A stretch of DNA of 29,628 nucleotides from a virus. The stretch lies in IMG/VR virus record IMGVR_UViG_3300044630_005899, positions 1 through 29,628 of that record; one strand, written 5' to 3'. The translations under genes were made by a program, and so were the position numbers. Position 1 is the stretch's first letter, and each line of letters begins with the position of its first letter. A model generated the notes under the pieces. It saw nothing but the letters and a program-made list of their open reading frames with translations, had not been told where the DNA came from and ran no database searches. Below are positions 9,834 through 29,628 of the stretch, one piece after another.

Positions 9834-9896
9834 CATTCAACAGGTGAGTATGGTTCCTCTACTCCATAGATACCTCGCCAGAAAGCCTGTTGAATG
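9834..9896 (+). ncRNA. Structured leader: 11-bp stem with inner hairpin before the replication gene
   Basis: CATTCAACAGG (9834-9844) and CCTGTTGAATG (9886-9896) are perfect reverse complements. The 41-nt loop contains a second stem, GAGTA (9846-9850) with TACTC (9860-9864), and an alternative one, TATGG with CCATA. No T-run follows, so this is not a classical terminator. It lies in the 93-bp gap between the RusA-like gene and the DUF1376 gene, before a strong GAGGGAAGAGG ribosome site. A cis-regulatory RNA or a DNA-level site is possible. Confidence 0.55.
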
Positions 9897-9917
9897 AAAT
9901 AGAGGGAAGAGGCAAAA

Positions 9918-10745
9918 ATGAAAATAATAGACGAGCCTGGTGAGTCCAGGCATTCAACATCGGCAACGCCGCTAGGCTGGTACAAATGGTATCCCAGGGA
10001 TTTCCTGGCGAGCAGCACAGTGAGGCGCATGTCATTCACTGCACAGGGTGTATATCGCGCACTGCTCGACCTGCAATGGGAAGACGGATTTCTGATTTCT
10101 TATGATGATGCAGCTGCGATTTTGCGACTGACACCAGAGGAAAAATCCGCGTTTCAGCCATTCTATGACCTGTGTTTTCCTGATGGAATCAATCCGAAAA
10201 TAGACGAGCAGCGGCAGGCATCTTTAACCTACATCGAGCGTCAAAGACAGGTCGCGAAAAACAAGCCTAAGGCTAGGTCAAGGGTAGCTAACAGCAAGCC
10301 TAAGGCTAGATCCAGGGTAGCTAACAGCGAGCCTACAGCTAGTGTCAGCCCAACAGAAACAGAAACAGAAACAACAACAGAAACAGAAACAATGTTAACA
10401 CTAGATAAATCTAGTGTAGAGACGACGCATGTTTGGTCGATTCCTGATGGTCTGCAGACAGAGAAATTCATGCACTCATGGTCGGCATTTGTGCAGCACA
10501 GGAAGCAGATGCGGAAACCGATTTCGGCTGTCGGTGGCAAGGCACTGCTGCGGAAACTAGAGCAGCATTCTGTCGAGGTCGCGACAGCTGCACTCGACGA
10601 ATCACTGTCGAACGGATGGCAGGGAGTGTTTCCAGAAAAAGTCGACATCGAACGACCTGGGCGCGCCAGGTCAGTACAATTTGATAACGGAAAGCAATCC
10701 ACACTGGCACGTCTAGGCGGCCTGGGAGATTACGAACATGAATGA
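9918..10745 (+). CDS. DUF1376-type replication protein, putative initiator, 275 aa
   Basis: Residues 19-110 match the DUF1376 domain of phage replication proteins (GWYKWYPRDFLASSTVRRMSF, then VYRALLDLQWEDGFL, then the LTPEEKSAFQPFYDLCFP region), expected to be a winged-helix-like DNA-binding part. Residues 112-170 are a low-complexity linker with KPKARSRVANS twice in tandem and then a Thr/Glu run. A helical C-terminal part (residues 172-275) follows. The linker DNA contains direct repeats and a palindrome, as in lambda O, whose gene holds the lambda origin. A helicase-loader candidate follows directly. GAGGGAAGAGG lies at the right distance from the ATG. Initiator function is inferred. Confidence 0.8.
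   Translation: MKIIDEPGESRHSTSATPLGWYKWYPRDFLASSTVRRMSFTAQGVYRALLDLQWEDGFLISYDDAAAILRLTPEEKSAFQPFYDLCFPDGINPKIDEQRQASLTYIERQRQVAKNKPKARSRVANSKPKARSRVANSEPTASVSPTETETETTTETETMLTLDKSSVETTHVWSIPDGLQTEKFMHSWSAFVQHRKQMRKPISAVGGKALLRKLEQHSVEVATAALDESLSNGWQGVFPEKVDIERPGRARSVQFDNGKQSTLARLGGLGDYEHE
9935..9951 (+). promoter_or_regulatory. Hairpin within the first codons of the replication gene
   Basis: GCCTGG and CCAGGC pair perfectly around TGAGT. The hairpin begins 18 bases after the start codon. CATTCAACA follows at 9951-9959 and repeats one arm of the leader stem at 9834, and GGTGAGT recurs from 9843. It could modulate translation by competing with the leader structure. Confidence 0.4.
10262..10417. 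other. Candidate replication origin inside the DUF1376 gene
   Basis: Two 33-bp direct repeats (10262-10294 and 10295-10327) agree at 31 of 33 bases. Each contains the dyad AGCCT-A-AGGCT and GGTAGCTAAC. A partial third unit starts at 10328. Next comes an A-rich CAGAAA-type run (10357-10391), then a 20-bp inverted repeat with arms ACACTAGAT and ATCTAGTGT (10398-10417). Iterons, an AT-leaning run and a palindrome inside an initiator-like gene copy the plan of the lambdoid origin in gene O. Confidence 0.55.
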
Positions 10746-11259
10746 ACCAACACTTACAAAAACACTACTGAAGTCATTCGCCATTCTCATCGATGGCGGC
10801 TATCGGACATACGGCGACTGGTCAGCCGAGCTGCTGCAGACGAAGGCGCGACTGTACGCGATGCTGCTGGACGATCCAAAAATCACACGCGATGTCGTGC
10901 AGGCGACGACCATGCGCTACATGCGGCGCGAGGTCTGGGTCTGGAAGGGCTGCGAGCAGCAGCAGGCATCGCTGGATTTCCCATCAGCGCCAGAGTTTCG
11001 GGAGGCATGTCTGCAGACACACCATGCCATGTACCAGACACTGGCCATAGGCTACAGCACAAACGAGCGCGGCTATCAAATCATGCACACGGTCGAGGTC
11101 AGGCGAAACATTCCAGAGCGGGAAAAGGAGCAGCTGATTCAGCGAGCGCGTGAGCAGCTAGGTCTGCCGACACCAGACAGCGAGGACAGGCAGCTGACGG
11201 CGGACGAGCTGGCACATGCAAAAATGCTGATTGAGCGAACACTGGGAGGTATGGAATGA
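10738..11259 (+). CDS. Hypothetical replication-associated protein, possible helicase loader, 173 aa
   Basis: All-helical and charged, without a nucleotide-binding loop. The N-terminal segment TLTKTLLKSFAILIDGGYRTYGDWSAELLQTKARLYAMLLDDPKITRDVVQATTMRYMRREVWVWKG resembles in layout the small phage proteins that sit after an initiator and load or control the replicative helicase. I cannot show homology to lambda P or G39P. It overlaps the initiator gene by 8 bp and has GGGAG before its ATG. A role in replication is inferred from position. The C-terminal 50 residues are more variable and Glu/Arg-rich. Confidence 0.6.
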   Translation: MNEPTLTKTLLKSFAILIDGGYRTYGDWSAELLQTKARLYAMLLDDPKITRDVVQATTMRYMRREVWVWKGCEQQQASLDFPSAPEFREACLQTHHAMYQTLAIGYSTNERGYQIMHTVEVRRNIPEREKEQLIQRAREQLGLPTPDSEDRQLTADELAHAKMLIERTLGGME

Positions 11260-29252: not shown

Positions 29253-29449
29253 GAGACATCGTCGTGAACATCGGTGGAGAGGGCGACCAGACGAGCATTC
29301 CGCTGGTCATTCAGGGCTGCGAATGTCGGTCAGAGGATTTCGTCATGGCGCTGATTCAGTTCACAAATTCATGGCGAGCTGCGGCTGATCGAGTTGCGCC
29401 AGAGCAGACCACAGAGCGTAAACCATGCGGGTGTCAAGATGCCAAATAA
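29249..29449 (+). CDS. Small hypothetical tail-region protein, 66 aa
   Basis: ATGA overlap with the hub gene. MRDIVVNIGGEGDQTSIPLVIQGCECRSEDFVMALIQFTNSWRAAADRV ends in a Cys-containing tail (TERKPCGCQDAK). It may be an adaptor between the hub and the 1163-aa protein, whose start lies within its 3' end. Its last 56 bases also appear at 1-56 because of the terminal overlap. Confidence 0.6.
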   Translation: MRDIVVNIGGEGDQTSIPLVIQGCECRSEDFVMALIQFTNSWRAAADRVAPEQTTERKPCGCQDAK

Positions 29450-29628
29450 CGGGCTGATTTTCGAGACGGCAGCCATCGAGTGGAAGCTGGAGTCGACAGC
29501 GACAGCCACAGGTTCAGGGTCAGGAACACTGGCAAAATCCCACACTGCGAATGCGTCGACGCAGTATGTGCCGAATGCGATAAACGTCAATACGGGCATC
29601 TACCTGGAGGTGTCATCGAGCGATGATG
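29394..29628. repeat. Right copy of the 235-bp terminal redundancy
   Basis: Identical to 1-235 except C29506 in place of T113. In the large tail gene this changes codon 38 of the frame counted from base 1 (Val in the left copy, Ala in the right). Confidence 0.95.
29439..29628 (+). CDS. Partial second copy of the large tail gene 5' end
   Basis: Starts at the ATG equivalent to base 46 and runs off the window. It is not a second gene but the same gene read again because the sequence overlaps itself. The one difference is Ala in place of Val (C29506 against T113). Confidence 0.9.
   Translation, partial: MPNNGLIFETAAIEWKLESTATATGSGSGTLAKSHTANASTQYVPNAINVNTGIYLEVSSSDD

Follow-up and report, generated by a model that had tools for sequence, protein, structure and literature searches.

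A probable replication origin within the phage initiator gene

Positions 10262–10417 of the viral DNA analyzed here (IMG/VR record IMGVR_UViG_3300044630_005899, 29,628 nucleotides in full, hereafter "the window") most probably represent a phage replication origin embedded in its own initiator gene, a reading to which we assign a probability of about 0.87. This had been proposed from the bare letters of the genome (the "sequence-only reading") and is now supported by a DNA periodicity that stands out with the protein held fixed, by covariation between the arms of an inverted repeat, and by the co-segregation of iterons with initiator N-domains.

The gene in question (9918–10745, + strand) encodes an O-like replication initiator of 275 aa (phrog_678) and contains the proposed origin. 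The phrog_678 "replication initiation O-like" profile matched the window protein with an E-value of 1.6e-11, over residues 117–252 only, and was matched by 16 of 16 aligned relatives. The N-terminal domain (residues 21–81, 9978–10160, + strand), which we propose to be the iteron-binding domain, corresponds to DUF1376 (Pfam PF07120). The earlier description of a DUF1376-type protein stands for the relatives, 15 of 16 of which matched PF07120 at E ≤ 0.01 (best 1.6e-22), but the window protein itself is sub-threshold (E 1.1e-4; 22.9 bits against a gathering cut-off of 30.1). A protein model predicts a helical domain at approximately residues 22–124 and, overall, two ordered domains with a linker between them that is modeled at very low confidence and predicted to be disordered. 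The C-terminal domain (residues 178–235, 10449–10622, + strand), with three predicted helices, is common to many O-like phage proteins and is proposed to contact the helicase or its loader. The linker had been read as KPKARSRVANS twice, then Thr/Glu, and it is indeed of this low-complexity composition. The origin elements sit within it, between the proposed DNA-binding domain and the C-terminal domain, and its disorder is as expected of a segment free to encode DNA sites. A structure search with the initiator model, which is good only in its two domains, returned no significant match, and no similarity was detectable between the window N-domain and the lambda O N-domain or solved structures. 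A scan of genome contigs gave only two distant matches, and a literature search found no paper on the function of DUF1376 or YdaU.

An 11-bp iteron array under selection at the DNA level

The iteron array occupies 10262–10349 (+ strand) and comprises eight 11-bp units with the consensus C[TA]AGCCTAAGG. In this register, the first four units read CAAGCCTAAGG CTAGGTCAAGG GTAGCTAACAG CAAGCCTAAGG and the last four CTAGATCCAGG GTAGCTAACAG CGAGCCTACAG CTAGTGTCAGC. The sequence-only reading had described two 33-bp direct repeats, each with the dyad AGCCTAAGGCT. Both are found, at 10262–10294 and 10295–10327, with mismatches at 2 of 33 positions and one dyad each, this dyad being absent from the rest of the window, and a third, degenerate copy begins at 10328. 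These repeats are real and mark the top short-period self-similarity in the window (lag 33, 54/66 matches; 40/66 at the runner-up place), but the unit is refined here to three times 11 bp, the two copies resolving into units 1–3 and units 4–6 of the array. Since three does not divide 11, the period of the protein repeat is 33 bp, the first multiple of 11 that is in frame. The same array is present in a close relative, L003, in a clearer form (CTAGCCTAAGG + CAAGCCTAAGG), and in relatives whose N-domain is different, units of the TGTTCAACAGG type are found, likewise at 11-bp spacing and at the same place in the gene.

Repeats and palindrome could conceivably be by-products of a repetitive flexible linker, i.e., reflect protein-level low complexity only, and the low complexity and disorder of the linker would fit with this, as would the in-frame 33-bp repeat (KPKARSRVANS, two copies). 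Periodicity was therefore evaluated against a null in which codons were shuffled among synonymous positions within each gene, leaving the protein unchanged. Lag 11 exceeded this null in the window initiator gene (p 0.006) and, across 24 divergent DUF1376 genes, displayed the highest mean z (3.1), followed by lag 22 (2.3). A lag-11 excess at p ≤ 0.05 was detected in 17 of these 24 genes, including 9 of the 12 from named phages, which were picked by protein similarity to YdaU and not by repeats; as the genes are related and not independent, a pooled p-value over them overstates the evidence. Among 41 other ORFs from the same loci used as controls, the mean z at lag 11 was −0.13 and none passed. 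Selection acts on the DNA of DUF1376 genes beyond the protein. With 11- and 22-bp periods that are out of frame, above protein-preserving codon shuffles, and missing from control ORFs, a by-product of the linker is a highly improbable explanation of the array.

O-like genes sharing the C-domain but encoding other N-domains often contain repeats of another period, and 8 of 26 passed the lag-11 test. Six genes of this type (L039, L045, L048, L053, L056, and L060) contain in-gene repeats beyond the fixed-protein null, with strongest lags of 14, 16, 20, 22, and 23, and the periodicity peaks of lambda O in the same analysis fall at lags 23, 24, and 20. The differing lags of the six genes suggest that the class of N-domain determines how long the iterons are.

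An A-rich tract followed by a covarying inverted repeat

The A-rich run and 9+2+9 inverted repeat that had been noted after the iterons were both recovered. The A-rich tract (10350–10397, + strand; 48 bp, 60% A, 6% T) is a proposed DNA-unwinding element, and the perfect inverted repeat ACACTAGAT-AA-ATCTAGTGT (10398–10417, unstranded) would close the proposed origin. Only one other perfect inverted repeat with 9-bp arms and a loop of up to 12 is present in the 29.6 kb, and this one surpasses what synonymous-codon shuffling of its gene yields (p 0.005, the floor). The window clade contains four distinct versions, each with an AA loop, and their arm pairs are ACACTAGAT/ATCTAGTGT, ACAGTAGAT/ATCTACTGT, ACACTAGCT/AGCTAGTGT, and AGACATAGAT/ATCTATGTCT. 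All 9 pairs are Watson-Crick in every clade sequence, with two-sided changes in 5 of the 9 (four relatives), and one to five pairs are lost when arms of different versions are combined. That the arms stay paired through two-sided changes also argues against a mere by-product of the linker. Dyads are found at the same place in other DUF1376 phages, such as CCCCCGC-AA-GCGGGGG in Bordetella and CCTTAGAGGCT-GA-AGCCTCTAAGG in Azospirillum. The inverted repeat is less general than the iterons, since it is individually significant in only 6 of 24 DUF1376 genes; in L092, the best inverted repeat lies inside the iterons, away from the closing position. A DNA-pattern search for the inverted repeat matched only contigs already in the comparison set.

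Covariation is blind to whether the pairing takes place in RNA or in DNA, and the hairpin at 10398–10417 folds (DNA parameters), so that the inverted repeat might act as RNA, by pausing or attenuation within the O-like mRNA. We regard this as unlikely, however, because it lacks a following T-run, lies within an open reading frame and adjoins the A-rich tract, and has a counterpart at the same place in lambda.

Reassortment of N-domain and C-domain modules

Two N-domain types and two C-domain types are seen in all four combinations, in the window, L003, L004, and L005. The window and L003 have the N-domain in common (95%) but not the C-part (64%), and the window and L004 the C-part (94%) but not the N-domain (47%); in the same way, L003 and L005 have the C-part in common (92%; N-domain 46%), and L004 and L005 the N-domain (81%; C-part 62%). 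Iteron class tracks N-domain type in 4/4 combinations, as would be expected from cognate recognition; physical linkage would by itself give the same result, since the iterons adjoin the N-domain coding region. Exchange is also evident in E. coli phages: in Rac-SA53, the N-domain and repeats of YdaU are retained and the C-part is new, and in vB_EcoS-673R7, the C-part is retained while the N-domain is new and the repeats are different. The sequence-only reading had named conservation of the repeats in relatives as a check, and this was observed in a stronger form, in which the layout is kept while the sequence changes, through compensatory changes in the inverted repeat and through other 11-bp iterons accompanying other N-domains.

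Operators and centromeres, too, typically have tandem sites in helical phase, and the array could on this ground serve a different DNA-binding protein (a repressor, or a ParB-like protein) as an operator or partition-type site, with no origin involved. This appears improbable, as in all these phages the site lies within the linker of the initiator itself, its sequence tracks the initiator N-domain type, and the A-rich tract and inverted repeat come next, in the lambda order.

The near-identity between the window and L004 starts at the inverted repeat, and the lambda record lists recombination points at 39157 and 39165, at its own origin-closing inverted repeat (L019:558-567), which is the place where relatives of the window show module exchange. 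Both observations would be accounted for if the inverted repeat were a recombination joint exchanging N-domain/iteron and C-domain modules, and no part of an origin. A mere homology joint, however, needs no compensatory changes keeping the arms paired, which makes this exclusive role doubtful; the inverted repeat may be both a recombination joint and a part of the origin.

A structured leader upstream of the initiator gene

Upstream of the coordinates covered by the sequence-only reading, the initiator gene is preceded by a 5' leader hairpin at 9834–9908 (+ strand). Its outer stem pairs CATTCAACAGG (9834–9844) with CCTGTTGAATG (9886–9896), its internal loop opposes GAGTA (9846–9850) and GAAA (9881–9884), i.e., GAGUA/GAAA in RNA, and its apical loop TTCCTCTA (9854–9861) can pair with TAGAGG(g)AA (9900–9908), beside the Shine-Dalgarno region. 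Across six relatives, 91.6% of cells pair and two-sided changes occur in 8 of 16 pairs, a count matched by 0 of 500 shuffles, and sliding the partners abolishes the signal. A model built from these six relatives detected a further copy exactly before the initiator gene of the 43%-identical L006 (E 0.005 over 458 kb). When hairpins whose loop pairs with the Shine-Dalgarno region were sought irrespective of sequence (score threshold 17), scores of 17 or more were obtained before the initiator gene in seven phages and at 0 of 170 other gene starts from the same loci. The seven include the circular genome MW202520 (L094) and L031, with unrelated sequences; the leaders of L003 and L025 have the same form by eye, with one outer-stem mismatch, and score under the threshold. 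The covarying leader hairpin, with its GAGUA/GAAA internal loop and loop-to-Shine-Dalgarno pairing, can also be seen in L001–L006. The search found none before most other named-phage DUF1376 genes, and Rfam gave no match at gathering score and none plausible under it. Pattern matches outside the clade, including L111 (E 0.03 with the leader model), were taken as chance given their unconvincing outer-stem pairing. Judging by this arrangement, the leader would most simply serve in translational control of initiator synthesis.

Genome context and the downstream gene

A 235-bp direct terminal repeat (1–235 and 29394–29628; 234/235 identical) indicates that the record is probably a complete genome of ~29.4 kb, either circularly permuted or assembled with an overlap. 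It encodes Gam-like, Erf, SSB, and RusA proteins, the initiator and a 173-aa protein, and then lysis and packaging genes. The gene for the 173-aa protein (10738–11259, + strand) follows the initiator gene, is conserved in the clade, and occupies the helicase-loader position. The suggestion that it may load the helicase agrees with this position. The fold of the protein is predicted with confidence (mean pLDDT 83.8), but no match to known loaders was obtained in sequence, family, and structure searches, a short resemblance to the protein annotated as P in L094 being too weak for use. In more distant relatives, the same place is taken by recognizable P-loop or DnaC-like proteins, and the downstream neighbors in other DUF1376 phages are DnaC-like loaders or a replicative helicase.

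Cumulative GC skew had also been put forward as a check, with a minimum anticipated around 10.3 kb. No such minimum was found: the raw skew is monotonic, and the detrended minimum falls at 24.6 kb and is comparable in amplitude to a random walk. Skew thus neither supports nor refutes the origin and was dropped as evidence. The detrended minimum of lambda lies near its own origin, which does not transfer to the window.

Proposed mechanism and implications

We infer replication at this locus and, by analogy with lambda, iteron binding, melting, and helicase loading. The DUF1376 domain would bind one 11-bp iteron at each helical turn, with the bound initiator copies assembling into a nucleoprotein complex. 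The adjoining A-rich tract would then melt, and the C-terminal domain would recruit the host helicase, directly or via the product of the next gene. The inverted repeat would close the origin, either by forming a hairpin in single-stranded DNA or by offering a binding site with dyad symmetry in the duplex.

A broader proposal, to which we give roughly even odds, is that DUF1376 is the DNA-binding domain of a widespread, uncharacterized class of phage initiators reading in-gene 11-bp iterons, Rac YdaU included (its gene being oriJ), and that in the window clade a new RNA hairpin, with a pseudoknot between its loop and the Shine-Dalgarno region, also meters the initiator. DUF1376, a domain of unknown function, would thereby gain a specific, testable role, origins could be spotted by eye in many phages whose annotation lacks one, and the leader would add a further layer of control on initiator synthesis. 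The four natural N-domain/C-domain combinations offer ready-made swap experiments on initiator-origin matching.

Comparison with known origins

The lambda origin lies in the middle of gene O and consists of iterons and an AT-rich region, and in the O protein a flexible linker connects the DNA-binding domain at the N-terminus to the P-binding region at the C-terminus (PMC7466680, PMC6022878, PMC3349717). As the sequence-only reading had stated, the lambda origin (NC_001416, 39034–39181) sits in its gene as the proposed one does in the window. Both lie within the linker of the initiator and have dyad-containing iterons, and the two agree in the order of N-domain, linker iterons, asymmetric A-rich tract, and inverted repeat. 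The last of the four iterons annotated in the lambda record ends at 39118 and is followed by a 39-bp tract (64% A, 13% T), and directly after this by an inverted repeat at 39158–39181 with 10-bp arms and a mismatch in 1 of 10 pairs. The two differ in that lambda has four 18-bp iterons spaced 20–24 bp, a different N-domain of lambda-O type, and the loader gene P directly downstream, whereas the window has eight 11-bp units, DUF1376, and an unrecognized 173-aa protein. Since the layout is shared while the 11-bp units and DUF1376 depart from the 18–19 bp iterons and lambda-O-type N-domain of that class, we consider the window to hold a lambda-like variant and not a lambda O origin proper. In Shiga-toxin phages P27 and 933W, whose O gene has six iterons, the number of iterons in the O linker varies and residues are thereby added to the protein (PMC7466680); they resemble the window in having iterons inside the O linker and differ from it in their lambda-type iterons and N-domain.

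A close parallel in layout within E. coli K-12 is ydaU-ydaV of the Rac prophage, which likewise combines a DUF1376 N-domain, linker repeats, an A-rich tract, and a GC-rich dyad. The ydaU locus (L089:6171-6977, MG1655 1421170–1421976) carries TGTTSAA-type repeats about every 11–13 bp in its linker and is followed by ydaV, the gene for a DnaC-like, ATP-binding protein. It differs from the window in iteron sequence and in C-domain, and its lag-11 signal is borderline (p 0.06). An active origin, oriJ, has been reported for Rac (PMC3945230); our literature search found no paper placing oriJ in ydaU. On the strength of the shared layout, ydaU is a candidate site of oriJ, and the Rac prophage thus provides a concrete place to look for this origin. 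The order of parts seen in the window and in lambda recurs in E. coli Rac and in further phages, among them those of Pseudomonas, Bordetella, and Azospirillum.
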